In this document: piece by piece, positions 16,792 to 35,820 of the stretch
Layout of the letters: the number at the start of each line of letters is the position of its first letter
Position numbering within the stretch: position 1 is the stretch's first letter
NCBI RefSeq assembly: GCF_014873765.1
Contig: NZ_JADBGG010000009.1
Span: forward strand, 1-64,000
Length of the DNA stretch: 64,000 nucleotides
Source of the DNA: Desulfomicrobium macestii
Lineage (GTDB): Bacteria > Desulfobacterota > Desulfovibrionia > Desulfovibrionales > Desulfomicrobiaceae
Reading direction: 5' to 3'
Made by a program: the position numbers and the translations under genes
The notes under the pieces: generated by a model
Told to the model about the DNA's origin: nothing
Databases searched by the model: none
Seen by the model: only the letters and a program-made list of their open reading frames with translations

Positions 16792-16851
16792 GCAATCTTC
16801 ACTTTAGCGGAGGCACCAACTCTCCTACTGAGCACGAGAGATGTTTTTATT

Positions 16852-19460: not shown

Positions 19461-19533
19461 CTTTTTAGAATTATTAAAAATTCGTGATAATTTTGTAACC
19501 ACCTCATAAAACAGGGCCATTGAGATCTCGATT

Positions 19534-21081
19534 TCACCCTTCGAGGAGGTTGTGGACAATGGATGCAATTTGTTTAGCTAAATACGGGGGAACAGCATTG
19601 CCAACTTGAGTATACTGACTAGTTCTCGAACCACAAAAAAAATAATCGTCGGGAAATGTTTGTAGTCTTGCAGCTTCTCTTACAGTTAAGCTCCGACACT
19701 GAAGTGGATCTGGATGTATATAGTAATGCCCATCTTTTGATATGTGACTCGTAATAGTTGTAGATGGTAAGGACGCTAATTGGACTCGAAACCTGTCTGC
19801 AAACTTTCCAGAATTCCAGTTTTCGTGCTCAGGAGCCAGCCCAGGTAAAGAAAAATCACTTTCACCTTTTGGAGATCTGTTAAACACTTTGGCAAATACA
19901 GAAGCAAATGAATATCTTCTTAAATCAGAAATCATATGAGACTTACTTTCGTGATTAAAGCACGTATCCGGCCAAATACCACGCAGCCATTTTTGGAGAT
20001 CAGGCGAAATTTTTTTTGAGAAATTGAGCTTAGTTTTCTTTTGAGCACAGCGATTGTATTTTTTAGTGGCAACTAAAAAACCAGTTTCATTCAATTCTTC
20101 TGCAAAGATATGCATTCCAGCTTTCTGCGCATATTTGGATAAAGCCCATAGTTCACGAGCAACATATGAATGCCATTTTGCTTGATCGTCTCGTTCTCTG
20201 GTCAAGCCACTGCGCAATTTTGGAAGGTCTGACAACATGCTTGAAACAGATGGTGGTTGATGGAAATTTAATAGATTTGGCTTTTTACATATGTCATTAC
20301 GGACTCCAAGGAGAATTACTCTGTGTCTAGTCTGAGGAATTCCATAATCTTCTGATTTAACGATGTAATCAGATGTGTCAAAGTCGGAAATATCCATTCC
20401 TTGTTCATAGCATGTTGGTTTTACAATTGAATAAATTCTGTAACCAGTGCAATTATTTTGGCAATCTGGATCTCCACCATTGGCTAAATCGTTCAGTATT
20501 TTAAATGCTATATATTTTCCTTCAATTTTACACGAAAGCATGCCTCGCACATTTTCCATAATAAAGACAGCAGGCTTGTATTTATTTAATACTTTCAGAT
20601 ACTCTTGATACAAAAAATGTCTTTTGTCGCTTGAGGGGTTATACTTTGCGTTACCAAGATTGCGTACGCGCCCGACAACAGAGTATGCTTGACATGGTGG
20701 TCCGCCTATCAATACCCATTTGTCAGTATTAAAAAAGCGTGTATCAAGATTTTCATATAATTTAAAATCTCCATCTTTGCTTCCTAGTTCTAGGCATAGA
20801 GCTTCATCATTTGCCTTGATCCAAAGTGGATATGTCCTTGAATTGTAGGGATAAGCAACTTGTCCAAGGCAATACTGATACAATTCAGAAGTGTCTTCTT
20901 GGTTGCGTATTAAACTTCTATAAAAAGATCGAAGGCGTAAGGTTGCGTGTGCATGTGGATCCATCTCTGCCGAAAGGATGATTTCAAAAGGACAAGATTG
21001 CGAATCGTCAACATAGGCGGAAAAGCCTTCTCCTAAACCACCAGGTCCGGCAAAGATATCGACAATGGGTATTGTTTTCAT
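19534..21081 (-). CDS. C5 cytosine DNA methyltransferase
   Basis: A 515-residue Dcm-type methylase. Motif I is VDIFAGPGGLGEGFS (about 7-21), motif IV GGPPCQAYSVVGR (catalytic Cys near 130), motif VI MENVRGML, motif VIII QTRHRVILLGVR, and motifs IX/X RSLTVREAARLQTFPDDYFF ... GNAVPPYLAKQIA. The large region between VIII and IX holds the target-recognition part. It protects host DNA in the defence system; the target sequence cannot be read from the protein. The ATG at 21081 starts exactly before motif I; a longer frame from 21249 is not conserved. Divergent from vsr. AT-rich codon use, unlike the core genes. Confidence 0.93.
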   Translation of the reverse strand: MKTIPIVDIFAGPGGLGEGFSAYVDDSQSCPFEIILSAEMDPHAHATLRLRSFYRSLIRNQEDTSELYQYCLGQVAYPYNSRTYPLWIKANDEALCLELGSKDGDFKLYENLDTRFFNTDKWVLIGGPPCQAYSVVGRVRNLGNAKYNPSSDKRHFLYQEYLKVLNKYKPAVFIMENVRGMLSCKIEGKYIAFKILNDLANGGDPDCQNNCTGYRIYSIVKPTCYEQGMDISDFDTSDYIVKSEDYGIPQTRHRVILLGVRNDICKKPNLLNFHQPPSVSSMLSDLPKLRSGLTRERDDQAKWHSYVARELWALSKYAQKAGMHIFAEELNETGFLVATKKYNRCAQKKTKLNFSKKISPDLQKWLRGIWPDTCFNHESKSHMISDLRRYSFASVFAKVFNRSPKGESDFSLPGLAPEHENWNSGKFADRFRVQLASLPSTTITSHISKDGHYYIHPDPLQCRSLTVREAARLQTFPDDYFFCGSRTSQYTQVGNAVPPYLAKQIASIVHNLLEG

Positions 21082-21169
21082 TAATTTGGTTGGTTTGTAT
21101 TGTGACCTTTTATAACAAGGGGTCAATTGCCAAGATTGAAATGAAAAAGCAACAAGGAAAAGTGCTGAT

Positions 21170-21595
21170 ATGGCAGATGTAGTGGATTCAAAAAAAAGAA
21201 GTGAAATGATGTCTGCGATTAAACAAAAAAACACGAAACCTGAACTCACCGTTCGTAGATACTTTCACTCAAAGGGCCTAAGATACAGGCTTCATAAGAA
21301 AGACCTGCCTGGAAAGCCTGATTTAGTTTTCCCCCAAAAAAAGTTAGTTGTATTTATTCATGGATGTTTTTGGCATAGACATGAAGGATGTTCAAAGTCA
21401 TACATACCAGCTTCAAATTTTGATTTTTGGAATAAAAAATTCAATGACAATATAGCAAGAGATAAAAAATGTAATTCCCAATTGAAGCAGCTAGGCTGGG
21501 AAGTTATCGTAATATGGGAATGTCAAATAAACGAAAAAAATTTAGATTTTTATGTTGAAAAAATACAAAATACAAAAACAAATCATGTTAAATAA
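21170..21595 (+). CDS. vsr: Very short patch repair (Vsr) endonuclease
   Basis: A 141-residue Vsr-type T:G mismatch nicking enzyme. Seen: RSEMMSAIKQKNTKPELTVRR at the start, YRLHKKDLPGKPDLVFP (the catalytic Asp in KPDLVF), HGCFWHRHEGC (zinc/catalytic histidines) and FWNKKFNDNIARDKK. Vsr repairs T:G mismatches left by deamination of 5-methylcytosine, so it pairs functionally with the divergent C5 methyltransferase 88 bases away. In GHKL/Z1 loci a Vsr-like protein may also serve as effector nuclease; which applies here is unknown. Confidence 0.93.
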   Translation: MADVVDSKKRSEMMSAIKQKNTKPELTVRRYFHSKGLRYRLHKKDLPGKPDLVFPQKKLVVFIHGCFWHRHEGCSKSYIPASNFDFWNKKFNDNIARDKKCNSQLKQLGWEVIVIWECQINEKNLDFYVEKIQNTKTNHVK

Positions 21596-21636
21596 AATTA
21601 TGATCTAAAATGTAGGTTGTGAGAATCGGCTGCGAT

Positions 21637-22572
21637 TTACCCAAGTTTGTACCGATGCCAAGCCAGATTCTCCGTCGCAGGGTAATAGCATTCCCTCTCA
21701 GGCAGGATCATGGGCCGGTGCGCAAACTGCTGGATGTGTCCGGGAAGATTGCCGTCCCGTGCTATCGAGCGGGCGATGATGACTCTGTAGTCGTCATCGA
21801 AGCCGACCAAGCCGCTGTCGAAAGTCCAGTGGCAGAGCTTGCACAGAGCCAGGCCGTTGGTGGGGCTGTCATCAAAAGAGACGGCCCAGTCTTTGATGTG
21901 GGCGGCGTCCACCACGGTGCGACTGTCCGGGGAAATGATGCGGATGCCGCAAAGGGCGCAGCGGTGATCGTAAACCTTGACGATGACCCTACGGAACGCT
22001 TGGTCGCGGACGGGTTTTTCCACGGGTTTTTCGTAGGGTGCCGGAGTTTCCCGAAGGAGTGTGGCGGCATAGTCGAAGGCCGAGACCTGGGTATTGGCCA
22101 GGTCGAGCAGTGCCTTTTCCAGTGCGGGGACGAAGCAGCGGCGGATCATGTCCAGCCGGGCCGTTGCGCGGGTCAGCGGGTTCTGAAGTAGTTCGAAGGT
22201 TGCCTCGTCCAAGGACGCGAAGGCGTATCGCTCCCGCACGTTCTTCCAAGAGGACGGTTCGGTTGCGGGCAGCTCTTTGCCGGGAACCGGATGCAGTGTC
22301 CAAAACCCGTCTGTCTGCAGATAGAAGAAGGGCAGGTGGATGCTCGGTCGCAGGCGGTCGGGCAGGATGGCGTTCCAGTAGAGCATGAACGCGTCGGTCA
22401 GGTCTTCGTCAGGCGCGATCCGGTTTTCCGTGATCCTGCCGGCATCCATGAGGTCGAGCACGGACAGGAGCAGGAAGGGCTTGTAAGGAGCCCGGCCAAG
22501 GGTTTCTGCCGGCCAAGTTGCTCTGTTGGTGTCCTGTCGGATGGCTGGGAACGCGAAGGGTGGCATTGGCAT
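21637..22572 (-). CDS. HNH endonuclease domain protein (putative restriction enzyme)
   Basis: A 311-residue protein. The C-terminal 120 residues carry an HNH_2-type nuclease: YDHRCALCGIRII, DAAHIKDWAVSFDDSPTNGLALCKLCHWTFDSGLVGFDDDY (AAHI histidine, N and two CxxC pairs for zinc). The N-terminal 170 residues match the usual partner region of these 'putative restriction endonuclease' proteins (YKPFLLLSVLDLMDAGRI). It is GC-rich, unlike the neighbouring methylase and vsr, so it may be a separate acquisition. It converges on vsr with 41 bases between. No methyltransferase of its own is adjacent. Confidence 0.85.
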   Translation of the reverse strand: MPMPPFAFPAIRQDTNRATWPAETLGRAPYKPFLLLSVLDLMDAGRITENRIAPDEDLTDAFMLYWNAILPDRLRPSIHLPFFYLQTDGFWTLHPVPGKELPATEPSSWKNVRERYAFASLDEATFELLQNPLTRATARLDMIRRCFVPALEKALLDLANTQVSAFDYAATLLRETPAPYEKPVEKPVRDQAFRRVIVKVYDHRCALCGIRIISPDSRTVVDAAHIKDWAVSFDDSPTNGLALCKLCHWTFDSGLVGFDDDYRVIIARSIARDGNLPGHIQQFAHRPMILPERECYYPATENLAWHRYKLG

Positions 22573-22650
22573 GGGCTTTTTTATCGTCCATTTTAGGAAA
22601 TGTCAGTAGGGAAGCTTGGAATGTTGCGGCTATTGCATCCTATATTAATG
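22573..22650. other. Short spacer upstream of the HNH gene
   Basis: It holds the upstream region of the HNH gene on the minus strand. No clear promoter or hairpin was recognised. Together with the decayed copy at 22651-22825 it forms the gap up to the helicase gene. Confidence 0.3.
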
Positions 22651-22825
22651 AAGCCCTGCCAGCCCATGACGGTGACGAACCCCGGTCGACACGAGGTAGT
22701 GTCGTGGTAAATTTTTCGTCGCGCACGTAAGTCTACAAGGCAATAATCTTCCTTTTGGTATCAAAAAAAGCAGAATTACGTCTTGCCCGTGATCTTCCTA
22801 AAAGCGAAAGTGATCGCCTTTATTT
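22651..22825 (-). pseudogene. Decayed second copy of the 3' part of the NERD gene
   Basis: This stretch aligns by eye, in the same orientation, with about 24900-25090 inside the NERD gene: shared words include CCCTGCCAG, AGTGTCGTGGT, AATTTTTCGT and GATCTTCCT. Read on the minus strand it encodes AITFAF, then after a frameshift GQDVILLFFDT. The intact gene encodes AIKFVF ... GQNVILLFFDT. It contains a frameshift and lacks the rest of the gene. The copy lies downstream of the helicase gene, pointing to an ancestral duplication or to replacement of part of a NERD-helicase unit. Confidence 0.8.
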
Positions 22826-22883
22826 GACTATAGGAATAACTTGCCTGTCTCCACATGTATTTTTATTTAATGCTATTTACTTT

Positions 22884-24623
22884 TTATTTTTCAAAATCAA
22901 TTTCTTCAAAAAGTTCTGTAGGGACATTTTCAAAGAAACGACAGAAAGGATCATTGCCGACCAAAGTAAGAGATTTTTTTGCTCTAGTCATTGCTACATA
23001 AAGAAGCCGTCTCAATATCTGCTCATCTTCTTCGATTTCATTTTGAAGTGATTGATCCAAAAAACGTCCTGGAAAGTTTTTGTCGTCAAGTCCCATAATG
23101 ACAATATGGTCAAACTCTAGTCCTTTTAGTTGATGGTACGTTGTGACAACTATCCCATTGGTAAATTGACCCAGTTTCGATCCCTTTGCTGTACTCGGAG
23201 TGATTCCAGCTTTTTTTAGACCGTTTTGCGCCCCAAAAACCTGTTTTGAGAATGGCATGGCGATAGCTACTGTCGACGTTCGTAATCTACCAAACTTTTC
23301 AACAATATACCTGTGACCTCTTTCCCATGATTCTTTCGGGCTATCCCCTTTTATTAGCCCGACTTTAGGTCCTTCTTTATCAGGAAGAATTGGGGGGACA
23401 TAATCATCTGATTTGGCAACATCTGAGTTTTCTATCACATACATCGCAACTTCCATGATCTGTTTAGTTGTCCTATGAGATCCAGAAAGCTTACGGGAAC
23501 GGCTGGCGTGAATATCAATCCCAACAGACTTCCACGTAAAGTTACGTTTATATATCTTTTGAGCTAAATCTCCTGCTAGTGTAAGTGAAATCCGTGAAAA
23601 CGGAGCCAATGCTAGCAGCCAACTCTGGTGAAAATCTTGAACCTCATCAATAAGAATATGGTCATATCTCAAAGTATTTGGGAGTTCCCCGGTCTTATCT
23701 AATGCTCTCAAAATAAGCATTCCCGCATTGTCGTAATCTTCTACATTTTCATCACGGAGAGCTTTGTTATACTGTTTAAAAACGCTCCAGACCAGCTTTC
23801 TGTCTTCTTCAGACAGCTTAAATACTGTGCCTCTACCTATTCTCTCTGCAAGAAGATATTCTTGCATTTCAAGAAATCCTTGCCCAAATATCCAGCTTAT
23901 TTCGTCATCCCACCAGTTCAAGAGCGTTCGCTCATCATCAATCTTAAGTAATCGATGGGCTGTGTTATTTTTTGCTTCTTCTTTAAGAATTCTTTGGATA
24001 TTTTCTGAACGCCATTTTGGGTCAGCCCAACCTCGAAAGTTTTCACCAAGATCACTTGCGGTTTTTTTTGCCCATTCATGGAAGGTGCTGACTTTTACCT
24101 GCTTCGATATTTCGGAATTTCGGAAACACCGGTTTATGTAGGCGCATAAAGCAGTATTATATGTCAGAAATAGCAGGCTACCCTTACCCATTACTGATAG
24201 GATGCGCCCAGCTCGGGCAGCTAGAACTGTTGTTTTGCCGCACCCTGCTTGGCCGCGGATCAGAAGATTCCCAGTTGGATCAAATTCTATGATTCTGTTT
24301 TGCTCTTCTGTAAAAGTAATTTCCGGTATTGAAACTGGTGCTTGTTGACCAGCATCGTTACGGGATTTTATTGTCTTTCCTACACCAGGGAGGCTCCAGA
24401 AATGATTTAAATCTTTCTGTGCTTCACCACGAGCCTTCATCCTATACAGAATAGAGTTAATGTCGCTTTTTTCTATCTCAAGTCCGTAGTCATTGACTAG
24501 CATGCTCGCAATTTGTTGAGCTTTGATCGGTCCATGTATGCGCAAAATTTCTCGTAATGTTTGTTCTTCGCTAGGTGTATCTTTTTCAGTTTGTTTGCTT
24601 TTAAAAATGCTTAAAAAACTCAT
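22884..24623 (-). CDS. UvrD/Rep-like superfamily I helicase with N-terminal winged-helix-like region
   Basis: About 579 residues. Residues 15-80 resemble a winged-helix domain (EQTLREILRIHGPIKAQQIASMLV). The helicase core has Walker A GQAGCGKTT (about 125-133), ILIDEVQDF (motif II), VVTTYHQLKGLEFDHIVI (motif V) and LLYVAMTRAKKSLTLVG (motif VI). It is shorter than UvrD and lacks a nuclease domain. GGAG lies 5 bases before the ATG at 24623, which is chosen over an upstream frame. It is transcribed 86 bases after the NERD gene, so it probably forms a nuclease-helicase pair with it; AT-rich and likely acquired. Confidence 0.87.
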   Translation of the reverse strand: MSFLSIFKSKQTEKDTPSEEQTLREILRIHGPIKAQQIASMLVNDYGLEIEKSDINSILYRMKARGEAQKDLNHFWSLPGVGKTIKSRNDAGQQAPVSIPEITFTEEQNRIIEFDPTGNLLIRGQAGCGKTTVLAARAGRILSVMGKGSLLFLTYNTALCAYINRCFRNSEISKQVKVSTFHEWAKKTASDLGENFRGWADPKWRSENIQRILKEEAKNNTAHRLLKIDDERTLLNWWDDEISWIFGQGFLEMQEYLLAERIGRGTVFKLSEEDRKLVWSVFKQYNKALRDENVEDYDNAGMLILRALDKTGELPNTLRYDHILIDEVQDFHQSWLLALAPFSRISLTLAGDLAQKIYKRNFTWKSVGIDIHASRSRKLSGSHRTTKQIMEVAMYVIENSDVAKSDDYVPPILPDKEGPKVGLIKGDSPKESWERGHRYIVEKFGRLRTSTVAIAMPFSKQVFGAQNGLKKAGITPSTAKGSKLGQFTNGIVVTTYHQLKGLEFDHIVIMGLDDKNFPGRFLDQSLQNEIEEDEQILRRLLYVAMTRAKKSLTLVGNDPFCRFFENVPTELFEEIDFEK

Positions 24624-24709
24624 CATTACTCCAATATAAATACAAGTAGTAAAAATTCTCAAATTTCTAATGTTCTATCAGCCTCTCACCTGTTTGAAAT
24701 CTGATCGAT

Positions 24710-26275
24710 CTACATTTTCATGAATCCACCTGAGTTTTTAAAAGCGCTCTGAATCCAGGCTTTCGTTTCTGGAAGCGGGCTTTGGGCTCCTTTCTGAACG
24801 AACATGCTCGATGTCGCTCGAATGGGCGCAACGTTGCCAGCTTTCGTTATAGAACTCAAGGTAATAAGGGCTTTCTTCGCTTCTGATCCTGGGCCGAATA
24901 AGTCTTCGTAGCCCTGCCAGGCAGGTCCCGTGACGATGATGTAACCTAGGTCGGTACGCGGGAGTGTCGTGGTCAATTTTTCGTTCGCCCGAACGCAGGC
25001 CCGCAAGGCGAGAGTTTTTGCGTTGGTGTCGAAAAAAAGCAGGATGACATTCTGGCCACGATCTTCCTCAAAGACGAACTTGATCGCAGTTGTAGAATTG
25101 TCCGAAGAGACCGCGTGAGTCAGTGGAAATGACAAGGGGACGTTTGAATATGAACGAGATTTTTCGACTTTAGTGTTTTGGGCTGGGTTGAAAACGCTAG
25201 TCACGGTGGCCTGCATGGTCTTGTACGCGCCAGTCAGGAGGATTGCGGCCAAGGCGCATGCTGCTAATTTGAGCGTCAGCGCAGGCCACTGAATTTGTTT
25301 GGTTGGCGATTGCTTGTGCTGCGAATCCTGGCCGGAAAGAAGGGCTTGCAATGTCCTGGTTAAATCCTTGGGGGCTGCTGCCTGGGCGGACGTGCTGTCG
25401 TGAGGTGAATTCGTCTGGACGTGGGCGTAGATGACGCCGCATTTCGGGCATTCGCCCGCGCTAACGAGCAGATCATCGTTTTTTGTGCGTTCATGAAAGC
25501 ACTTCGGGCAGACAATGCCGCTAGTTTGGGATTGCTGGCCAATCGGGCTGGGTTGTGCCGCTTGGTAGGACACGGCTGCGGCCAGCAGGGGGATAATTTG
25601 ATCCCTCGCCTGGGCCGGAAAACTCCCGCGCTGCGAAAGAATATACGGTCGCAGGTAGTCGACATTGAGCACGGCCACGCCACGGACCGGCCCTCGAATT
25701 TCAACGAATCCCCGCGAGAAGCAAAGAATCGGCTTGATCGAAAATCCGCGCAGCCTCTCTGCGTTCAGGTGGTCCCGGAGCGAGTAGGTCTGGCTCCAGC
25801 ATTGATTCAAAAAATCCTTGAAGAATTTGCGCCCGTTTCTGAGCAGGACGTCATTTTGCTGAGTGATATTTCCTTTTTGGCTCTTGGTCTCCACCAAGAA
25901 GATGCCGTTGGGGCCGAGGACAACATGGTCGATGTTGAAACCGGGGAATTCGAGGTCATGGAAGACGTAGTAATCGTTTGGGAGTTCTTGCAAGGCTTCG
26001 GCGACGGCTTGTTCAGCTTTGGCTCCTGTGTCGGCGTCGGAAATCCGTTTTTTAAGCTTGAGCCCAGCTTGTTCAAGCGACTTGATGGAGACGAAATAGA
26101 AGACAGCGACCCCGACACCCCAGTTAAGGTGCCCATGTGTCAGCAGATAATAAGCGACAGGTATCAGCAGCAGTGACGAAAGCATGGGTAGGGCGATACG
26201 AGAAAGCATATCCTTGTATCGCGAATTTCCCATGGCAAAAGCACTTTTGCCAGCTGATCCAAAGACCTGAGCCAT
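24710..26275 (-). CDS. Membrane-anchored NERD-domain protein with zinc ribbon
   Basis: About 521 residues. Two hydrophobic segments near 27-60, then a NERD nuclease-related domain: GAKAEQAVAEALQELPNDYYVFHDLEFPGFNIDHVVLGPNGIFLVETKS (D and E-x-K like residues). A four-cysteine ribbon CPKCFHERTKN...GECPKCGVIYA lies near 270-300, another membrane helix near 345, and the C-terminal 150 residues are unassigned. NERD domains are PD-(D/E)XK-like and often accompany helicases. The start at 26275 follows GAGGAGG closely; ATG further upstream at 26299 is an alternative. The 3' part has a decayed duplicate at 22651-22825. Confidence 0.8.
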   Translation of the reverse strand: MAQVFGSAGKSAFAMGNSRYKDMLSRIALPMLSSLLLIPVAYYLLTHGHLNWGVGVAVFYFVSIKSLEQAGLKLKKRISDADTGAKAEQAVAEALQELPNDYYVFHDLEFPGFNIDHVVLGPNGIFLVETKSQKGNITQQNDVLLRNGRKFFKDFLNQCWSQTYSLRDHLNAERLRGFSIKPILCFSRGFVEIRGPVRGVAVLNVDYLRPYILSQRGSFPAQARDQIIPLLAAAVSYQAAQPSPIGQQSQTSGIVCPKCFHERTKNDDLLVSAGECPKCGVIYAHVQTNSPHDSTSAQAAAPKDLTRTLQALLSGQDSQHKQSPTKQIQWPALTLKLAACALAAILLTGAYKTMQATVTSVFNPAQNTKVEKSRSYSNVPLSFPLTHAVSSDNSTTAIKFVFEEDRGQNVILLFFDTNAKTLALRACVRANEKLTTTLPRTDLGYIIVTGPAWQGYEDLFGPGSEAKKALITLSSITKAGNVAPIRATSSMFVQKGAQSPLPETKAWIQSAFKNSGGFMKM

Positions 26276-26540
26276 TTCCTCCTCACCCTCCTGGAGCATT
26301 TGCACCTGAAATGTGCTGCACATTTTATTGCAGCCATTTTGATAAGCCTCAGCTGGACGAAAGTGTCAAGAATTTTAGGATGTAAGACATGCTGGTCGGT
26401 GTTGTTGGATTCTTGTCAAAAAATGGCGTTTGTCAGACGCCAGTCTAATCAGAGTGTCTCCAATACGCCTTTTTAAGGATTTTATGTCTTGAATATTGGG
26501 CATCGTCCCAGGCAGTTGGGATGATATCCGGTCCCGACAC

Positions 26541-26573
26541 CAAAATTGGCCGTCCAGCGAATACTGGACGGCC
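26541..26573 (-). terminator. Terminator after the VIT/VWA gene
   Basis: GGCCGTCCAG (26548-26557) pairs perfectly over 10 bases with CTGGACGGCC (26564-26573), loop of six. Read on the minus strand it is followed by AATTTTGG. It lies just past the stop of the VIT/VWA gene. The remaining 265 bases up to the NERD start show no gene. Confidence 0.65.
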
Positions 26574-26584
26574 TTGAGGGGTGC

Positions 26585-28762
26585 CTAGAAATTGTCGAGG
26601 ATATCCTCGACTGAGGTTTTCAGCCTCGGAGCAACCGCAAACGTACTCAAAGCCTGACGCAATAATCTCGTGTCATCCCGCTTGATAGACCCATCCCTCT
26701 TTGCAGCCAACAGCGCCAGCGTAAGTGAGATTGCAGTCTCTGTTGCTTGAGATGCTTTGGCATCCGTTTGGGCGGTCGCTATGCCAAGGAGTGTGTCTCG
26801 CAGCAAAGCGTTGAGGGCGTCGACAATCTCTTCCGGGATGCCCCACGCTTCAAGCATTGCGAAAGTGATGACCAAATCCGGCTGATGTCTGATGGCACTG
26901 ATGGCCTGTTCGAGGAGACGCGCGATCCATGTGTTTTCTGATGGCGCGCTGACCGGCAGAAGAGATGAATACTCTGCGCCGGAGTCGCGAATATATGACG
27001 GCGCGTACATGTTTGGCGTTACGGCCATGATGCTCTCATGCGTGACCATGCCTCCCCACCCACGCGGAATGTTATGCTCCACCGTACGCAATTGCGGCAG
27101 TCCCCCAGATTTCTCAGATTCGGCCCTTTCCAGCACGGCCAGGAAGTTGGTGAAGGGGCTCATCAGGTTGTACTCGACCGCCAGCGCCGTCGCCTCGTCT
27201 TCCGGCAGGGACTCCAGCTTCATGGCTGCCGCGAAGCGGGGCAGGGCGTTGGCGAGGGCCAGGGATTCCTTCACTTTGGTCTGCTGCGACATGGAGCCGT
27301 CCGCAGTGTCGAACCTGAAGGAGACGGTCTTGGGCGGGGTTGCGAACCAGGCGCAGCCGAGCACCATGTCGCCATCGAAGACGGCCGGCAGTTTCTCCGG
27401 GCAGACGGCCAGCGGCTTAGCCCCACCGAAATCAAAGGCCGGGTTTTGGGCGGGGATGAGGGTCATGCGCTTGAAGTGCTCGAAGACCTTCCTGCCCATG
27501 TCTTCCTGGACGCTGACGAAGATCGCGTCACCATCCGTTTTTGAAGAGAGGGCGGAGAGGACACCGCGTTCGACGGCGCTGCCCACCCCGATGCAGAACA
27601 CCCGGTGCCGTTTTTTGGCCAGCTTGCCGGCGACTGCGCCCATGTCCCAGACCTGTCCGTCGGTGATGAGCAGGATGTCTTCGGGCATGCCTGCCGGCGA
27701 GGCGGAGTTCAGGGCTTTTTCCAGGGCCTTCTCCATCTCGGTGCCGCCCATGTTGGCGTCCATGGATCTTGTCAGCGTGATGGCGGCTTCAAGGTGCGTG
27801 GCGTCGGCCGGTTCCTGCCTGTTGAAGAGCGCGGTGCAGAAAGACCCGAAGAGGATGATGTTGAAATGGTCTTCGGGGCGCAGGCGGTCCAGGGCCCGCA
27901 GCAGGGCCTGCCTGGCCTGGAGGATGGACTCGCCGCCCATGGAGCCGGAGCAGTCGACCACGATCTTGATGCTCCTGGCCGGAGCCGGGGCGCTGAATTT
28001 CGGGGTGAAGCCGGCGAGGACGACATGCCCGCCCTTGTCCGGTGCGCACACGGCAAAGGACCTCGGCATATCCTGCGCAGTGAAGGCCATGATGAAGTCG
28101 CGGTCCATGGCGGTCGTCTCCGCCGAGAGCGAGATTTCGACGCGGCCAACGTCCCTTTTCATGACGGTCTTGTGGGCCGGGGTGAGGATGTCCGCAGCGG
28201 CGAGGCACCCTTCGATGCCAATGTGCAGGCTGAACCTGTTGTCAGCCAGGAGACTGTGCCCCGGGATCTGGTGCGGCGCCAGGCCGCGCGCGACCGGATC
28301 GCCGTAGAGGGGAGCCAGGGTCGTTGGCAGCTCGTAGCGTACCTCGTCCGCCTTGGGGCTCAGAACTTCCAGGAATTCGACGCTGACCACGGCCCTTTCG
28401 CCGGGCATGATGTTGCCGACGTTCAGGCTGTACAGCCCGGAGTCGAGCCGCTCCAGCATGATCGGGGAGTCGCCGTCCGAGATGGCGTCTTCATAGCGCT
28501 CCTGGGCCTCCCGCTTTTCCACGGCGATGCCTTTGAGCTCCCTCTGCCCGATCACAATCCCCAGATCCGTGAGCACGCCGTCAATGGGCAGAGCAAAGGT
28601 GTACACGGCCTCGATGTTCACGTCTTCGCAGTTGACGAAATGATACTCCATGCGCGTGCGGGCCAGGTAGTCGCGAATGTCGACGCGCACGTTCGCGCTC
28701 TGCAGGAGGACATTGCGCGAGTCGATGGTTTTCAGGGAGGGGGCTGATATCTCGGAATACAT
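26585..28762 (-). CDS. VIT and von Willebrand factor A domain protein
   Basis: A 725-residue protein. A VIT domain occupies about 10-135 (VRVDIRDYLARTRMEYHFVN, EAVYTFALPIDGVLTDLGI, EKREAQERYEDAI). A VWA domain at about 262-430 has an intact MIDAS site, DCSGSMGG (270-277), and later DILLITDGQVWD. A helical C-terminal region follows (about 600-725). No signal peptide is seen, so it is probably cytosolic. Such proteins are predicted metal-dependent adhesion or scaffold proteins; their role in bacteria is poorly known. It starts 3 bases after the stop of a MerR-family regulator gene, so the two form an operon. Confidence 0.88.
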   Translation of the reverse strand: MYSEISAPSLKTIDSRNVLLQSANVRVDIRDYLARTRMEYHFVNCEDVNIEAVYTFALPIDGVLTDLGIVIGQRELKGIAVEKREAQERYEDAISDGDSPIMLERLDSGLYSLNVGNIMPGERAVVSVEFLEVLSPKADEVRYELPTTLAPLYGDPVARGLAPHQIPGHSLLADNRFSLHIGIEGCLAAADILTPAHKTVMKRDVGRVEISLSAETTAMDRDFIMAFTAQDMPRSFAVCAPDKGGHVVLAGFTPKFSAPAPARSIKIVVDCSGSMGGESILQARQALLRALDRLRPEDHFNIILFGSFCTALFNRQEPADATHLEAAITLTRSMDANMGGTEMEKALEKALNSASPAGMPEDILLITDGQVWDMGAVAGKLAKKRHRVFCIGVGSAVERGVLSALSSKTDGDAIFVSVQEDMGRKVFEHFKRMTLIPAQNPAFDFGGAKPLAVCPEKLPAVFDGDMVLGCAWFATPPKTVSFRFDTADGSMSQQTKVKESLALANALPRFAAAMKLESLPEDEATALAVEYNLMSPFTNFLAVLERAESEKSGGLPQLRTVEHNIPRGWGGMVTHESIMAVTPNMYAPSYIRDSGAEYSSLLPVSAPSENTWIARLLEQAISAIRHQPDLVITFAMLEAWGIPEEIVDALNALLRDTLLGIATAQTDAKASQATETAISLTLALLAAKRDGSIKRDDTRLLRQALSTFAVAPRLKTSVEDILDNF

Positions 28763-28765
28763 GTT

Positions 28766-29188
28766 TCACTCCTTGGGGTTCATGGCCGACACCAGGGCGG
28801 TGATCTGTCCTGCCAGGTGTCGAAGCTGGTTGTTGTCAAGTTTGAGTTCCGACGGGTCGAGGTGCAGCTCCAGGCCCGGCGCCAGCCAGATCCGTGAGCA
28901 GATCCGGATCTCGCCGGGTCGCTGGGCCCGGGGCAGGGCGGCGACATCGGGCCCGGCCAGTTCGCCGGTCATGATCCCGCGAATGGCCTCCAGAGATACC
29001 CCGGCCGCTTTCCATTTCTCGATCTCCAGCAGCTGGCGCACATGCTCCCGGGTGTAATGGGCAGCCTTGCGCTGCCCCACCGGGCGGTCCACCAGCCCTT
29101 TCTGGATGTAGAACCGGATGTTTCGGGGCGACACCGCGGTCAGCTCGCTGACTTCGTCGATGGTGAGTTTGTTTTCGTGTGAGCTCAT
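28766..29188 (-). CDS. MerR-family transcriptional regulator
   Basis: About 140 residues. The N-terminal MerR HTH is clear: LTIDEVSELTAVSPRNIRFYIQKGLVDRPVGQRKAAHYTREHVRQLLEIEKWKAAGVSLEAIRGIM. The C-terminal half lacks a metal-binding cysteine cluster, so the signal is not an obvious metal. I chose the ATG at 29188 because a dyad at 29201-29230 would otherwise overlap the alternative start at 29206. It is the first gene of the operon with the VIT/VWA gene and probably regulates both. Confidence 0.8.
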   Translation of the reverse strand: MSSHENKLTIDEVSELTAVSPRNIRFYIQKGLVDRPVGQRKAAHYTREHVRQLLEIEKWKAAGVSLEAIRGIMTGELAGPDVAALPRAQRPGEIRICSRIWLAPGLELHLDPSELKLDNNQLRHLAGQITALVSAMNPKE

Positions 29189-29200
29189 GGGGTCTTTATG

Positions 29201-29560: not shown

Positions 29561-30379
29561 TCAATCCTCCATGGCGTCACCCATGGCATCCAACTCCGCA
29601 ACCGCATCCTTGGTGGCGTGGTAGCCCTTCGCCATCAGATACTTGCGCAAGATCCGGCGTTCCTCTGGCGTCACCTTGAGATCCGGGTGAAGCCGTGTGC
29701 GATCGTCTTCGATGTCGCAAGGATACTTTCGCAGTATGCGGTTGATCGTAGCCACCTCCTCGGGATCAATCAAATTCTTTGGGGTGCTCGCCTTGGAAAA
29801 GTCATAGACCATCGTGCGCGTGGAATCTTTGGGCTTTTGCGCAGGGCCTGTGCCTGCTGGTAATGAATTCATCTTTTTTGCGTAAACCTTGCCCACGGTC
29901 AGCCCGTCCGCATCGGCCCAGTCCATGTGCGGGAAGTTGGGCGGGAGGTGTCCATGTTCGGCGGCGGTGTGGGCCACGGTGTAGCCATCGAAATCTGCCA
30001 GATCCCATCTGTTGAAATCAGGGGGGAGGGCGCCGTGCGAGGCTGCTTCGTGGGCCACGGTCCATCCCCTCAGGTCGCGGATCTCCCAGTGGATGAAGTC
30101 GGGTGGCAAGTGCCCGGTTCTGGTCGCCTCGTGGGCCACGCTCCAGCCGTCGACATCCGCCAGGTACCATCTGTCGAAATCAGGTGGAAGGGTGCCGTGT
30201 GAGGCTGCTTCGTGGGCCACGGTCCATCCGTCGGTGGCGCGGAAGACGTTGGGTGGCAGACAGACGGATCTGGCCGCCTCGTGGCCCACGCTCGAATCGT
30301 AGGGGTGCCTCAATCCCCATTGATCGAAGTCCGGTGCCAGAAGCCCTTTGCGGGCCAGATCGTGATAATCAACGGGCAT
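29561..30379 (-). CDS. Tandem ankyrin-like repeat protein
   Basis: A 272-residue protein. Residues 1-180 consist of about six units of roughly 25-33 residues with the pattern DGWTVAHEAASHGTLPPDFDRWYLAD, close to the ankyrin TxxHxAAxxGxLP core. The C-terminal 90 residues are charged and include TPEERRILRKYLMAKGY. The repeats are similar at DNA level too, suggesting recent repeat expansion. Such repeats bind proteins. It is the last gene of a six-gene operon, starting 13 bases after a phosphoesterase gene. Confidence 0.78.
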   Translation of the reverse strand: MPVDYHDLARKGLLAPDFDQWGLRHPYDSSVGHEAARSVCLPPNVFRATDGWTVAHEAASHGTLPPDFDRWYLADVDGWSVAHEATRTGHLPPDFIHWEIRDLRGWTVAHEAASHGALPPDFNRWDLADFDGYTVAHTAAEHGHLPPNFPHMDWADADGLTVGKVYAKKMNSLPAGTGPAQKPKDSTRTMVYDFSKASTPKNLIDPEEVATINRILRKYPCDIEDDRTRLHPDLKVTPEERRILRKYLMAKGYHATKDAVAELDAMGDAMED

Positions 30380-30392
30380 GGTAATTCTCCTT

Positions 30393-31256
30393 TTATCGTG
30401 CTTTCCTGCTTTTCAGGAAGGTATCAAGAATCAGGATGCCTTCTTCCTGCAAGGCGTTCAGGTCGGGGGCCGTAAATCGTGTGCACCCTTCCAGGCCGAC
30501 GAATTCGCCTTGGTACATCTTCCTTCTCGGGTCGTATCCCATCGCCGCCATGTTTCCGCCGGGATAGGCGGCAAGCCAGAAGAGCCCATCCTTTGGCTGG
30601 AGCCATTCAATCATCATGCCCGACATGCCGACCCCGGCAACCCGGACGCCTCCATCAATCATGGCGTCATAACGCTCGTGGTGATGGCCATGAATGTGAA
30701 TCCTGGCCTTGAGTGCGCGTGCCGCGTCACCCAGGATCCGGTAGCCGAGTTTGTGGGACTCCGGGGCCTCGTGGGTCACGAGTACATCGACGCGGGTTTT
30801 GCTGGCAAGGCGGGTCATAAAGTTCAGGTCTTCCGGAAAGATGGTCGTGTGATCCTGCGGGGCAAGCTTCTTGTCCTTGCGAATCAATGCCAAGCTTTGG
30901 CGAGTGTCCTGGGGGCGGACGTGGGGCAGGTCGCTCAACGTCGTCTGCCGGTCAACGCCCAGGATGTTGGACCGGAATGTGCCGCCGAGTCCGGCGATGC
31001 GCAGGCCCTCAATCTCCACCACGCGGCAATGCAGGTTTCTGTCGGCCATGGGGGCATGGTGAGCGAGGTATTCGGGATCGTCACTGTCATGGTTGCCGAA
31101 TATCCACCATGTCTTTGCCGCGATCTCCGTGCCGAGGATGGACGCCAGATCGTCGAGGGGTTCCTGGTCGCCCAAAAGGATGACTGCCCTGGCTGATGCC
31201 GCAGCTTCCAGAATGGGCTCAAAGTCGCCGTGACAATCTCCGACGAAGAGTATCAT
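30393..31256 (-). CDS. Calcineurin-like metallophosphoesterase (copy 1)
   Basis: A 287-residue cytosolic phosphoesterase: GDCHGDF (6-12), LLGDQE, FGNHDSD, VTHEAPESH and HGHHHERYD carry the metal-binding D, H and N residues of the family. About 60 extra residues at the C-terminus distinguish it from its downstream-copy paralog. Its ATG overlaps the stop of that paralog by 4 bases (ATGA). The substrate is unknown; relatives act on nucleotides, nucleic acids or phosphoproteins. Confidence 0.88.
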   Translation of the reverse strand: MILFVGDCHGDFEPILEAAASARAVILLGDQEPLDDLASILGTEIAAKTWWIFGNHDSDDPEYLAHHAPMADRNLHCRVVEIEGLRIAGLGGTFRSNILGVDRQTTLSDLPHVRPQDTRQSLALIRKDKKLAPQDHTTIFPEDLNFMTRLASKTRVDVLVTHEAPESHKLGYRILGDAARALKARIHIHGHHHERYDAMIDGGVRVAGVGMSGMMIEWLQPKDGLFWLAAYPGGNMAAMGYDPRRKMYQGEFVGLEGCTRFTAPDLNALQEEGILILDTFLKSRKAR

Positions 31257-31936
31257 ACCCGCTCTCTCAGACCTTGGCCCAGCCAGAAAAAACCTTCGGC
31301 GGTTCTCGCCATTCCGATGCCCTCGACGCGGATTCCGCCTGTGATAGTGGCGCTGTAGCGTTCGTGGTGGTGCCCATGAATGAGCATCTTGACGCCCATG
31401 GCGCGGGCAATGTCGCCGAGGAGTGGGAAACCGAGCGCGTGAGACTCGGGGGCCTCGTGCGTGACCAGCACGTCCACTTGCCCCTTGAGCTGCAGCAAGG
31501 CTGTCAGATCGTCAGGAAAGATGGAAGTGAAGTCCGCAGGGTATGACCTTCCGCCGCGCCGGAGCTTAATCCACGCCTCTCTGGCGTCTTGTGGGCAATT
31601 TAAATCTACTTCGTGCAGCCTCGTCGTTTGATCTATTTCGAATTTTTTTGCGCGAAACACGCCGCCAAGGCCTGCGATGCGCACGCCCTCGATTTCCACT
31701 ACGCGGCAGTGCAGGTTGCGGTCAGCCATTGGCGCGTGATTATCGAAATAACACTGGTAGTCACTGTCATGGTTGCCATAGATCCACCATGCCTTCGGGG
31801 CCAAGCCAAGCCCTAGTTCCACCGTCAGGTCGTTCAGTGGTTCCTGGTCGCCCAGCAAAATGACTGCTGAGGCCTCGCTGGCCTCCTCGATGATGGGCAC
31901 AAAATCCCCGTGACAGTCGCCCGCAAACAGAATCAT
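31253..31936 (-). CDS. Calcineurin-like metallophosphoesterase (copy 2)
   Basis: A 227-residue paralog of the neighbouring gene with the same motifs: GDCHGDF at the N-terminus, LLGDQE, YGNHDSD, VTHEAPESH, HGHHHERY. The two share long identical blocks (HAPMADRNLHCRVVEIEG), showing a tandem duplication. The ATG at 31936 overlaps the previous stop by 4 bases; a frame from 32017 is not conserved. All catalytic residues are kept in both copies, so both are likely active. Confidence 0.88.
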   Translation of the reverse strand: MILFAGDCHGDFVPIIEEASEASAVILLGDQEPLNDLTVELGLGLAPKAWWIYGNHDSDYQCYFDNHAPMADRNLHCRVVEIEGVRIAGLGGVFRAKKFEIDQTTRLHEVDLNCPQDAREAWIKLRRGGRSYPADFTSIFPDDLTALLQLKGQVDVLVTHEAPESHALGFPLLGDIARAMGVKMLIHGHHHERYSATITGGIRVEGIGMARTAEGFFWLGQGLRERV

Positions 31937-32202
31937 ACGCCCCCGCAGTTTTTCAGATTTGGTCCCCAGGTCTCCCGCCCGGGATCCTGCACCCACCTCC
32001 ACCATTCCCGGTAGCACAAGTCGTCAAAGGGGCTCTCAAGGTTCTTTTCATAGCCCGCGACTTTGCGCAGGTCCTCCATGATTTCAGCATCATCGAGGGC
32101 GGCCCTGCGCAGCTCGTTCCAATCTTCCTGTCGTCCCCGGGTGATGCAGGAATCAATGGCTGCCGGGGTCCACACTTCATGGTTCAAATGTCTGTGCTTC
32201 AT
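31933..32202 (-). CDS. Small protein of unknown function in the phosphoesterase operon
   Basis: An 89-residue charged protein (KHRHLNHEVWTPAAIDSCITRG...). GGGAG lies about 10 bases before the ATG at 32202. It starts inside the DUF6088-like gene (26-base overlap) and its stop overlaps the next ATG. No recognised domain, helical by composition. Its place next to an AbiEi-like gene would suit a small partner, but nothing in the sequence shows that. Confidence 0.65.
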   Translation of the reverse strand: MKHRHLNHEVWTPAAIDSCITRGRQEDWNELRRAALDDAEIMEDLRKVAGYEKNLESPFDDLCYREWWRWVQDPGRETWGPNLKNCGGV

Positions 32203-33028
32203 TTCTTCTTTTCTCCCACCGCCGTTTCCACGCCTTGTAAGTCCTTCCAGGGCCAAGTAATTTCCATTTTTTAAGATTTGGCAGGGAATCTTTGAGCCCT
32301 ACATGGTATTCGGTTTGTGGGTTCAACGTCGCTTTAAGTACGGATCGAAGTCGTTTGTATCGTGCATGCTCAAGCATTGCACCCAAGACAGCCCGCACGC
32401 GTGGCGGGTAGTGCAGGGCGTATTCAACCAGCTTTTCGACCCTGTGTTTTTCAAACCGTTTGATGATCCACAAGAGACGCCTCACAGCGTCGTCTGGCGA
32501 TGCGTCTTGGATATGTTTTATATCCTTTATTGAATCTAAAATCATGAGTAAGGCACAATCAGCACCATCAGGAATTTCTTTTAATGTCGAGCGCACATAT
32601 CTGATACGAAGACGGCCCAACCTTCTTCTGTAATGTTTGGTCGGATGCGCAATGGTAACAATCATCGGAATTTGTGTTGAAATTCCAAGCGCATTGTGTG
32701 CGTCGAGACCTGTGACATATACATTGCCTAAAGAATTTATTCTCTCTGCGTCAAAGATCGGGACTGCACCATATTTGTTCCAATCAGGCCGGTAGAAATT
32801 TGCAGTGTATGCTCTTTTGAGCTCTTCGCGCTTGACGAGCTGCGATAAAGCCTGGGTAAGGGCTTTACGCCTGGTCAGTGCCAACTCCCCGAAGGCTTCG
32901 TAGCCAAAGATCTCCCCAGTGGAGAACTGCTTTATTCGCTGCCGCACGACTTCGATGACGCTTTCTTTTTTCACAACAAAACCTCGCAGCCTGCCTTTCA
33001 CCGTGAGAGGGTAGTCCGCAAGAGACAT
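32177..33028 (-). CDS. DUF6088 / AbiEi-like antitoxin-type protein
   Basis: A 283-residue protein. The N-terminus (about 15-90) resembles a winged-helix of AbiEi-type antitoxins: VRQRIKQFSTGEIFGYEAFGELALTRRKALTQALSQLVKREELKRAYTANFYRP. A central beta-rich part follows (NVYVTGLDAHNALGISTQIPMIVTI). The C-terminus is strongly basic. AbiE systems pair such a protein with a nucleotidyltransferase toxin; no such toxin is present here. It begins 17 bases after the upstream phosphoesterase gene in the same operon. The family call is moderate. Confidence 0.65.
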   Translation of the reverse strand: MSLADYPLTVKGRLRGFVVKKESVIEVVRQRIKQFSTGEIFGYEAFGELALTRRKALTQALSQLVKREELKRAYTANFYRPDWNKYGAVPIFDAERINSLGNVYVTGLDAHNALGISTQIPMIVTIAHPTKHYRRRLGRLRIRYVRSTLKEIPDGADCALLMILDSIKDIKHIQDASPDDAVRRLLWIIKRFEKHRVEKLVEYALHYPPRVRAVLGAMLEHARYKRLRSVLKATLNPQTEYHVGLKDSLPNLKKWKLLGPGRTYKAWKRRWEKRRNEAQTFEP

Positions 33029-33045
33029 ATTCTGTCCCTACAGGA

Positions 33046-33768
33046 CTACCCTTCAAGTTCCACCCACCACTTGTCCCCGAAGCCTTCGGCGCTTAGGGCC
33101 TGCCATTCGCAGCCCTGGTCTTCCCCGTGTGCGCTGAGGTGGAAATGCCCGAAGAACCACCTCCGGGGCTGGAACGCTTGCAGAACAGAATCCAGGAGGG
33201 CCACCGTGGGGTCCTCCAGTCGTGCCTGATCAAACTTGTTCTTCGGGAGCTGCCGTAAGAATCGCGCAGGTCCAGTGTGCGAGATCACGATATCAACGCG
33301 CCCCCCATGGGCCGCAACTTGCGACCGGGCACGATCAAGATCCTCGACAGTGGGCACCTCTTTCGCCCACCAGTCGTCGCCTTCGGTTCGACCTTCCCTG
33401 TCGGTGGACATGCCTCCCCCGAAGAAGAGGACGTACCTGCCGTCTGGTAAAGTCAAGACTGAACCCCTTGGCATGTAGAAACAGCCGGGAACCGGAATTT
33501 CCAGGGGCTGCCCTGGGGTTGCCTTCATGCGCTCTTGCAGGTCGTCGTGATTTTCGTGATTGCCGTCGCACCAATACAGCGTCGCCCCGCCCAGCTTGAC
33601 GGAGTATTGATCGAACCGACGATTTCTGCTGATCTTGTCCGTGCCGTGGCGGTGCGGCCACCATCCAAAGTCGCCACATTGCAGTATGATGTCGGGCCGT
33701 TTCTTGTTGCAGAACCTGTTGAGCGCCCCAAAGTCAGCGTGGATGTCTCCGATGACGATTGTTTTCAT
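33046..33768 (-). CDS. Calcineurin-like metallophosphoesterase (copy 3)
   Basis: A 240-residue phosphoesterase, first gene of the operon: VIGDIHADF, LQCGDFGWWP, DGNHENHDD, ISHTGPARF and FFGHFHLSAHG carry the metal ligands. It belongs to a different subgroup from copies 1 and 2. The ATG at 33768 is chosen because the conserved first strand starts right there. Divergent from the small HTH gene, sharing an about 150-base promoter region with it. Confidence 0.88.
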   Translation of the reverse strand: MKTIVIGDIHADFGALNRFCNKKRPDIILQCGDFGWWPHRHGTDKISRNRRFDQYSVKLGGATLYWCDGNHENHDDLQERMKATPGQPLEIPVPGCFYMPRGSVLTLPDGRYVLFFGGGMSTDREGRTEGDDWWAKEVPTVEDLDRARSQVAAHGGRVDIVISHTGPARFLRQLPKNKFDQARLEDPTVALLDSVLQAFQPRRWFFGHFHLSAHGEDQGCEWQALSAEGFGDKWWVELEG

Positions 33769-33921
33769 AGCTGTACGTAAAAATAGTTTTTTTTGGTGAG
33801 TTATCGCCAATGTCAGCACGAACTGGGTGCTGATCCTGTTGTCATTAGTAATATATTACGTTGGGCTTGTCAATAGATTTCCGCTAGTCTCACCCAAAAT
33901 AATCAGGACGGTGGTGGGGTC

Positions 33922-34149
33922 ATGTCAATTTACGATATTCGTTCGGAGACAACAGGAATTACAAGTAATGTGAAGCGAATCATGGAAGAGAAAAAAATAT
34001 CCATAGTAGCGCTTTCAAATGAAACAAAGTTGTCCACCAAAATTATTGAGCGAGCCAGAACAAATCAAATCAAATTATGTAAGCTTGAAACTCTTGCAAT
34101 AATTGCCAAGGGATTGAATGTAAAAATAGTTGAATTGTTCGATGAATAA
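33922..34149 (+). CDS. Small XRE-like helix-turn-helix protein
   Basis: A 75-residue protein with a Cro/C1-type fold: NVKRIMEEKKISIVALSNETKLSTKIIERARTNQIKLCKLETLAIIAKGLNVKIVELF. It is divergently placed from the phosphoesterase operon and could repress it. AT-rich and phage- or island-like. Its start follows a GGTGGGG sequence. Confidence 0.75.
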   Translation: MSIYDIRSETTGITSNVKRIMEEKKISIVALSNETKLSTKIIERARTNQIKLCKLETLAIIAKGLNVKIVELFDE

Positions 34150-34366: not shown

Positions 34367-35557
34367 TCACTCGTTGACCGTGAAAGGCAACACCTTGCGG
34401 CCCTGACCTGCCTTCAATTCGTCCAGATAATCTGCCCATAGTTGCATCATCTTCCTTCTTTCATCGAGAAACTTGGTTCGATTGTAGGCGCGTCCAAGGG
34501 TGTCGGGCACTGCATGCGCAAGTTGGTGCTCAATGATGACTGGATCGATGCGCAGGCGTTCATGCAGAAGCGTTCGGGCTATGGCGCGAAACCCATGGGC
34601 CGTGATCTCGCTTTTCGTGTCGTAACCGAGGCGTCGAAGGGCGGCATTGATAGCCGCCTCACTCATGGCCTTCGACTTGTCTTTGCCACCATTCGGGAAA
34701 ACGTACTGGCCGACCTTGGGCAACTCTCCCAGCAATTCAGATGCCTGGATGGCCAGGGGGACGATGTGCGGATTCCGTGTCTTCATTTTTTCTGCCGGAA
34801 TGCACCATTCCCGGCCGGACAAGTCCAGTTCCGACCATTCCATCTTTCGAAGTTCCCCAGGACGTACAAAAAGCATGGGGGCAAGCCGCAGAGCGACGCG
34901 CACATGGGGTGTTCCGGTAAAAGCCTCGATTGCACGCAGCAGTGCTCCGACTTCCGTCGGGTCGGTGAGGGCGGGGTAGTGTTGAACCCGAGCGGGAGGG
35001 ATCGCTCCAACCAGATCCCCTGCCGGATTGCGAGTTGCGCGACCGGTCGCGATTGCATAACGGAATACCTGTCCGATTATTCCGCGTGTTCTGTGTGCGA
35101 GGTCTACCGCTCCCCGGGCTTCGATGCGCCGCAAGAGCGCAAGGATCTCGGGGGGCTCAAGGGTGTCCATTGTGCGACTGCCGATGAAGGGAAACACGTT
35201 TTTCTCCAACCCGAGCATAATCTTGACAGCATGTGACTCCGCCCAGCCTGGGGCTTTTTTGGAATACCACTCCCGGGCGATCTTTTCGAGGCTTTCGTCT
35301 TTTCGTTGTGCCTTGGGCGGCAGTTCGCCACGGCCCAGAGCGATCTTGAACTCGTCTTTCTTGAGTCTGGCTTCATTAAGGGTGACAATGGGGTATTTGC
35401 CAAAACTCGCCAATTTTTCTTTTCCGTTCTCTCGATACTTCAATCTCCACAACTTTGATCCGGAAGGTGAGACGAAGAGGAAGAGACCGTCCGCGTCGTA
35501 AAGTTTGTACGCCTTGTCGGATGGCTTTGCTGCTCGAATCTGTGCGTCTGTAAGCAT
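34367..35557 (-). CDS. int: Tyrosine recombinase (P4-type integrase)
   Basis: A 396-residue integrase. The N-terminal DUF4102-like domain is MLTDAQIRAAKPSDKAYKLYDADGLFLFV...GKEKLASFGKYPIVTLNEAR. The catalytic domain has R in MLFVRPGELRKMEW, HGFRA (HxxR), HQLAH and the tyrosine in GRAYNRTKF. It catalyses site-specific insertion of a genomic island. The ATG at 35557 matches the family start. It lies about 190 bases from the 3' end of tRNA-Met, the usual arrangement for an island that uses a tRNA as attachment site, and would mark the right end of an island extending to the left. Confidence 0.93.
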   Translation of the reverse strand: MLTDAQIRAAKPSDKAYKLYDADGLFLFVSPSGSKLWRLKYRENGKEKLASFGKYPIVTLNEARLKKDEFKIALGRGELPPKAQRKDESLEKIAREWYSKKAPGWAESHAVKIMLGLEKNVFPFIGSRTMDTLEPPEILALLRRIEARGAVDLAHRTRGIIGQVFRYAIATGRATRNPAGDLVGAIPPARVQHYPALTDPTEVGALLRAIEAFTGTPHVRVALRLAPMLFVRPGELRKMEWSELDLSGREWCIPAEKMKTRNPHIVPLAIQASELLGELPKVGQYVFPNGGKDKSKAMSEAAINAALRRLGYDTKSEITAHGFRAIARTLLHERLRIDPVIIEHQLAHAVPDTLGRAYNRTKFLDERRKMMQLWADYLDELKAGQGRKVLPFTVNE

Positions 35558-35744: not shown

Positions 35745-35820
35745 TGGTGGGCCAACCAGGGGTCGAACCTGGGACCATCCGGTTATGAGCCGGGGGCTCT
35801 ACCAACTGAGCTATTGGCCC
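35745..35820 (-). tRNA. tRNA-Met (anticodon CAT), likely island attachment site
   Basis: On the minus strand: acceptor GGGCCAA (35820-35814) with TTGGCCC, A, CCA at the 3' end. The D-arm is AGCTCAGTTGGTAGAGC, the anticodon loop CTCATAA (anticodon CAT) and the T-arm GGTTCGACC. The CCA is encoded. An elongator Met is most likely; an Ile2-type CAT tRNA cannot be fully excluded by eye. The adjacent integrase suggests its 3' end is the attachment core. I found no second copy of the 3' end elsewhere in the window that would mark the far end of the island. Confidence 0.9.

Follow-up and report, generated by a model that had tools for sequence, protein, structure and literature searches.

A repressor-linked phosphoesterase operon recurs beside different integrases in Desulfomicrobium defence islands

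Does an operon that combines three metallophosphoesterases with an AbiEi-like protein and an ankyrin-repeat protein next to an integrase encode a single system, and what would such a system serve? The operon in question occupies positions 29561-33768, on the minus strand, of a 64,000-nucleotide stretch (the window) of contig C9 (NZ_JADBGG010000009.1) from the 4.5 Mb genome of Desulfomicrobium macestii. The six genes that a preliminary description had placed in this interval were recovered with the families proposed for them, namely, three Metallophos matches (MPE1, MPE2, and MPE3), a DUF6088/AbiEi match, a weak ankyrin match, and a small gene without a family (SML), together with the neighboring divergent helix-turn-helix (HTH) gene and integrase. 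We tentatively interpret the operon as an instance of a phosphoesterase conflict module that is specific to Desulfomicrobium, regulates itself, and is situated at the integrase end of mobile defence islands; its phosphoesterases may act on nucleic acid or a nucleotide. As judged from sequence comparison, the module is composed of a constant core, including the HTH gene and the array MPE3-MPE2-MPE1-CTD (CTD, the C-terminal domain of the ankyrin-repeat protein), together with an AbiE-like insert that is decaying and ankyrin repeats as an optional extension.

The preliminary description had made its proposal depend on these families clustering near tyrosine integrases in other genomes, and a search for such clusters recovered the set in five other Desulfomicrobium genomes, so that the families do occur together elsewhere. 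Altogether, eight copies of the module, with fixed gene order and orientation, were detected in 6 of the 16 Desulfomicrobium genomes. The host genome alone contains three, in the window, on contig C27 (locus L009), and split over the ends of contigs C41 and C28 (L012 and L010), and one copy each is present in genomes G009, G007, G001, G013, and G015. HTH, MPE3, MPE2, MPE1, and CTD are found in all eight copies, in the order HTH repressor, then MPE3-MPE2-MPE1-CTD, with MPE3 frameshifted in G001 and MPE1 frameshifted near its end in C28. The ATGA overlaps, a sign of translational coupling, are maintained in the eight copies, and each copy is accompanied by the HTH gene (80-99% identical; found in 6 of the 16 genomes), an additional, weaker homologue of which is located at another place in G001. 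Median ratios of nonsynonymous to synonymous substitution rates (dN/dS) range from 0.06 for HTH through 0.10-0.13 for the three phosphoesterases to 0.25 for CTD, with dS often about 1 or above in the same gene comparisons; by this measure, all module genes are under purifying selection. Because the module is present in eight copies in six genomes and dN/dS is 0.06-0.25 for every gene, the arrangement is not due to chance.

The divergent HTH-MPE3 intergenic region, about 155 bp in most copies, contains a TTGACA box and, after it, the palindrome ACGTAATATATTAC; both are retained in the eight copies, with a single change each in G001 and G009, even as the flanks diverge. Each copy has one operator, and across the 16 genomes of the genus, the exact 14-mer occurs only at module promoters; the HTH protein therefore most likely regulates just its own module; HTH control over the whole island, which was also considered, is unsupported given this restriction of the exact operator. 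These features bear on the possibility that a house-keeping or metabolic phosphoesterase operon and a decaying AbiE-type toxin-antitoxin (TA) locus became adjacent by chance on a successful island lineage and have no joint function. The wide occurrence of solitary MPE1/2-like genes in proteobacteria, the gain or loss of the AbiE-like insert as a block, and the host-like GC content of MPE1, MPE2, and the ankyrin gene (~59-60%) would all fit such a composite, which is nevertheless improbable in light of the order, ATGA coupling, and private operator preserved in eight copies, the purifying selection on every core gene, and the recurrence of the MPE3-MPE2 pairing in other genera (see below).

The last gene of the operon encodes a conserved 86-amino acid domain, CTD, which is confined to Desulfomicrobium among the 247 genomes of the class, preceded by ankyrin repeats as a variable N-terminal addition. 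The ankyrin fold is seen in a structure model of ANK-CTD, and the repeats are present in three of the eight copies (window, C27, and G007), the other five having CTD alone. The earlier suggestion that the repeat protein recognizes a target was thus not borne out, and the ankyrin part is rejected as an essential sensor.

The three phosphoesterases contain the Metallophos domain above the curated cut-off (60.7, 37.6, and 35.7 bits versus 21.5). MPE1 and MPE2 are, as first described, tandem paralogs (57% identical), and the alignment confirms that the metal ligand set (D-x-H / GD / GNH[ED] / H / GHxH) is complete in all three enzymes. The MPE1/2 ligands D6, H8, D29, N54, H55, H159, H188, and H190 are invariant, as is the equivalent set in MPE3, and those of MPE2 are unchanged over 42 relatives. 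The enzyme domain of MPE1 is well predicted by AlphaFold2 (predicted local distance difference test score of 83.8 for the protein), and the solved structures most similar to it are aq_1956 and TT1561 (Z ~17) and Dbr1 (Z ~16), followed by GpdQ, Mre11, and Rv0805 (Z ~14-15). Sequence profile searches matched Rv0805 (1e-5) and Dbr1 (1e-3); for MPE2, a single-sequence search yielded no close solved relative and profiles yielded only distant ones. The nearest folds and profile matches (Dbr1, Mre11, and Rv0805) suggest a phosphodiester substrate. The enzymes share the fold and the full dimetal ligand set with the calcineurin-like phosphodiesterases Rv0805, Dbr1, Mre11/SbcD, and YfcE, but are only 15-24% identical to them and differ in operon context and in a HicB fusion.

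This fusion resides in the last 60 residues of MPE1, which match the N-terminal domain of HicB antitoxins from hicAB loci of the genus (hhalign 98.6%, E 1e-15, 47% identity), the HicB identity of these loci being backed by Pfam. The tail is modeled, with lower confidence, as three strands followed by a helix. On this alignment, MPE1 joins a phosphoesterase and the N-terminal domain of HicB in a single protein. Unlike HicAB TA systems, the module lacks the C-terminal DNA-binding part of HicB, and no HicA was found in the window operon. By analogy, the HicB domain and the nearest folds make a nucleotide or RNA plausible as substrate.

Of the remaining genes, AbiEi and SML are present in six of the eight copies, AbiEi being absent from C41/C28 and G013, and SML of G001 being split by an insertion sequence element. 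The PADLOC AbiEi match (1.2e-29) covers residues 23-222, and the DUF6088 match is above the cut-off. In C41 and G013, the last ~23 codons of SML alone remain before MPE2, a scar which indicates that AbiEi-SML was deleted there. A 96-amino acid nucleotidyltransferase gene lies between SML and MPE2 in C27, G009, and G001; none is present in the window operon, where MPE2 directly follows SML. The C27 enzyme (L009:2918-3208) has the Pfam domain NTP_transf_2 (1.4e-11) and the motif GSX10DXD, which is the motif given for MNT proteins (PMC7641770). SML homologues precede and overlap genes for AbiEii-type nucleotidyltransferases, identified by match or by annotation, in another Desulfovibrionales genome (L201), in Pseudomonas putida pKF715A, and on an Acidiphilium plasmid. 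SML-like proteins of ~75-97 amino acids overlapping such genes in unrelated bacteria were located at L201 4594-4878, L299 2501-2728, and L301 2438-2728. From these neighborhoods, SML is a conserved, uncharacterised small partner of AbiEii-type nucleotidyltransferases, and this pairing leads us to read AbiEi-SML-nucleotidyltransferase as an AbiE-like, TA-type module that is decaying and is gained or lost as a block.

The insert resembles the AbiE type IV TA system (AbiEi/AbiEii; PMC3985639) in being headed by AbiEi/DUF6088, in the nucleotidyltransferase added in sibling copies, and in the pairing of SML with AbiEii-family genes elsewhere. However, the sibling enzyme is a minimal 96-amino acid nucleotidyltransferase rather than AbiEii (DUF1814), it is missing from the window, and three phosphoesterases surround the insert. 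The MNT motif and NTP_transf_2 domain are likewise shared with HEPN/MNT (HepT-MntA) TA systems (PMC7641770), but here the nucleotidyltransferase is partnered by SML, and the operon proteins gave no match to a HEPN family. The observation that AbiEi of the window lacks its usual toxin is thereby explained, the nucleotidyltransferase having been lost there and kept in three sibling copies. The broader proposal of a TA-like system is supported for AbiEi with SML, and with the nucleotidyltransferase in the siblings. The six genes do not constitute an indivisible system, as two copies have lost the insert and keep HTH, MPE3, MPE2, MPE1, and CTD. Comparison of the copies thus shows a core that is kept while neighboring TA genes decay.

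In every copy but C27, the integrase gene converges on HTH, which in turn diverges from MPE3, although the integrases themselves differ. Type A, shared by the window and G013 (98% identical), is associated with a tRNA-Met site in both; type A′, shared by G009 and G001 (99% identical), adjoins the transfer-messenger RNA (tmRNA) gene and is 51% identical to type A; and type B, found in C41, G007, and G015, is 24% identical to type A, with its stop codon 26-31 bp from that of HTH. The C27 copy is accompanied by a different, multi-recombinase set. By sequence, the core is located beside four recombinase contexts (two tRNA-Met and two tmRNA sites), at least three of which are unrelated.

On the other side, most copies of the module lead into defence cargo that differs between islands, in agreement with the anti-phage island setting proposed earlier. 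In the window, this cargo includes Mza at 11525-19460 (PADLOC: MzaB 6e-72, MzaC 3e-128, MzaD 5e-19, and MzaE 5e-76) and, at 19534-21595, genes for Dcm and Vsr; all of these lie to one side of the tRNA-Met integrase. Elsewhere, it comprises Zorya type I (C28 and G009), bacteriophage exclusion (BREX) and cyclic oligonucleotide-based antiphage signaling (CBASS) systems (G015), and type III restriction-modification (G001 and G009). An integrase beside tRNA-Met or tmRNA and variable defence cargo are common to these loci and to tRNA-linked, integrase-headed defence islands; the difference is an invariant phosphoesterase module between recombinase and cargo, whichever the recombinase. The sequence profile match to the cyclic-nucleotide phosphodiesterase Rv0805 and the CBASS-carrying island could be taken to mean that the enzymes regulate adjacent CBASS-like or other cyclic-nucleotide systems by acting on their nucleotide signal, which is highly unlikely, as CBASS accompanies just one of the eight copies and none of the other cargoes is known to use a cyclic nucleotide.

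Two further observations concern the islands. A NERD gene and a MerR/VIT-VWA pair (window 24710-28762) neighbor the module in several Desulfomicrobium genomes and occur without it in G008 and G013. At the tRNA-Met site of G006 (L092 2022-2426), an MPE3 fragment is joined to a NERD fragment, a relic of a decayed island.

The coordinates of all features in the window are listed in Table 1. The preliminary description had put all gaps within the operon at 17 bases or less, which probably does not hold between MPE3 and AbiEi: the longest open reading frame (ORF) of the latter starts at 33028, but its homologues (265-266 amino acids) start at the position equivalent to GTG 32974, which is probably the actual start and makes the gap more likely 71 bp. 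SML overlaps both the end of AbiEi and the start of MPE2 (ATGA).

Table 1. Features of the phosphoesterase module and its surroundings in the window.
Feature	Coordinates	Strand	Description	Matches
Variable cargo	11525..29200		after the module; MERR, VIT-VWA, NERD, UvrD/GajB-like, HNH, Vsr, Dcm, Mza	Pfam VIT/VWA, MerR, and NERD; PADLOC MzaB, C, D, and E
ANK-CTD	29561..30379	-	variable ankyrin repeats and conserved C-terminal domain (29561-29818)	weak Ank
MPE1	30393..31256	-	calcineurin-like metallophosphoesterase (residues 1-225) and HicB N-terminal domain (about 235-287)	Metallophos 4e-9
MPE2	31253..31936	-	calcineurin-like metallophosphoesterase, MPE1 paralogue without tail	Metallophos 1.6e-8
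SML	31933..32202	-	89-amino acid small protein	no Pfam family
AbiEi (ABI)	32177..32974	-	AbiEi/DUF6088 protein, probable start	DUF6088 6.4e-8; PADLOC AbiEi 1.2e-29
MPE3	33046..33768	-	calcineurin-like metallophosphoesterase, phage-type (phrog_1649) subgroup	Metallophos 3.3e-16; phrog_1649 1.4e-33
Putative operator ACGTAATATATTAC	33848..33861	-	private palindrome after TTGACA -35-like box, HTH-MPE3 intergenic region	
HTH	33922..34149	+	75-amino acid Cro/C1-type repressor	HTH_26 2.5e-7
Tyrosine integrase, type A	34367..35557	-	3′ of tRNA-Met	Phage_integrase, Phage_int_M, Arm-DNA-bind
tRNA-Met	35745..35820	-		

Relatives of the enzymes extend beyond the genus. MPE3 and MPE2 are adjacent in two other Desulfovibrionales genera (G115 and G058), in G115 as integrase-MPE3-MPE3-small ORF-MPE2, with a second, decayed locus, indicating that the enzyme pair is older than Desulfomicrobium and is carried on mobile DNA there. 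In G117, MPE3 comes directly after jetD, a Wadjet gene. The MPE3-like gene at L260 7377-8075 overlaps the end of a JetD gene, behind an SMC-like protein of 1528 amino acids. Another (L257 7092-7778) adjoins what appear by eye to be Tn7-type transposition genes. MPE3-like genes also occur in phages, where they have no conserved partner. A phage origin of the module was nevertheless rejected: viral contigs contained no MPE1/2 relative, phage records contained one distant relative, and no phage DNA match was obtained. MPE2-like genes adjoin a TraD/VirD4-like (mad8-like) ATPase gene in six genomes of the order, a second conserved neighborhood of the family (L040, L041, L043, L045, L269, and L271), which in L041, L043, and L269 also includes ClpP-like and type I methylase/specificity genes. 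Among 78 loci in distant bacteria, MPE1/2 relatives (~40% identity) had no conserved partner.

On the plasmid-like contig C50 of the host genome (L011; 4406-6150 and 11879-13900), each of two Rep3 genes is followed by an MPE2-like gene, the first pair being translationally coupled and the second separated by ~160 bp, and MPE2-like genes are located near ParA on other elements. This linkage invites the explanation that HTH, the phosphoesterases, and the AbiE-like insert serve not defence but stabilization or control of the island, whether by addiction or by control of excision or copy number, with the phosphoesterases reversing or processing products of the nucleotidyltransferase or acting at replication or excision intermediates. 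The recombinase-adjacent position, constant over at least three integrase types, the TA-type insert, and the HicB fusion in MPE1 are compatible with such a role. We consider it rather unlikely, because the insert has been lost from copies that persist, so that the core is not an antitoxin of that nucleotidyltransferase, because the module has no HicA partner, and because G008 retains similar cargo without the module.

Several results also weigh against the conflict module interpretation. The Rep3 linkage fits maintenance equally well, and the proximity of the core to defence genes may simply reflect their shared carriage on islands. The more distant MPE1/2 relatives are mostly solitary chromosomal genes of proteobacteria without the module partners, implying that the family is not defence-specific. 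G008 has MERR-VIT-NERD cargo near its tRNA-Met site and no detectable module. Against the named systems of PADLOC 2023, the operon yielded only the AbiEi match, the enzymes receiving weak PDC-S10 matches, and no attachment site (att) direct repeats were found in the examined stretches of the tRNA-Met and tmRNA islands of the window, G009, G015, and G001. We nonetheless consider defence or exclusion somewhat likelier than pure island maintenance.

Under the conflict module interpretation, the HTH protein would repress the operon at the palindrome, and repression would be lifted upon infection, when a rival element enters, or when the island is excised. The three dimetal phosphoesterases would then hydrolyze a phosphodiester in nucleic acid or in a nucleotide signal, with the HicB domain tethering MPE1 to RNA or a partner protein, and the invader would be harmed or excluded. 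Whether MPE3-MPE2-MPE1(HicB)-CTD under its own repressor represents an undescribed phosphodiesterase-based immunity or exclusion system, a standing module of mobile defence islands regardless of integrase and cargo, is more doubtful; we found no account of this gene combination in the literature, our coverage of which was partial.

The small size of the repressor and its one private operator offer a simple handle on the module. Testable leads also come from the fusion of a phosphoesterase to HicB and from SML as a partner of AbiE-type nucleotidyltransferases. The usual view of defence islands is that they collect systems that can be exchanged for one another. A module that remains constant while integrases and cargoes differ is a candidate for serving the islands' own needs, such as exclusion of rivals, control, or stability.

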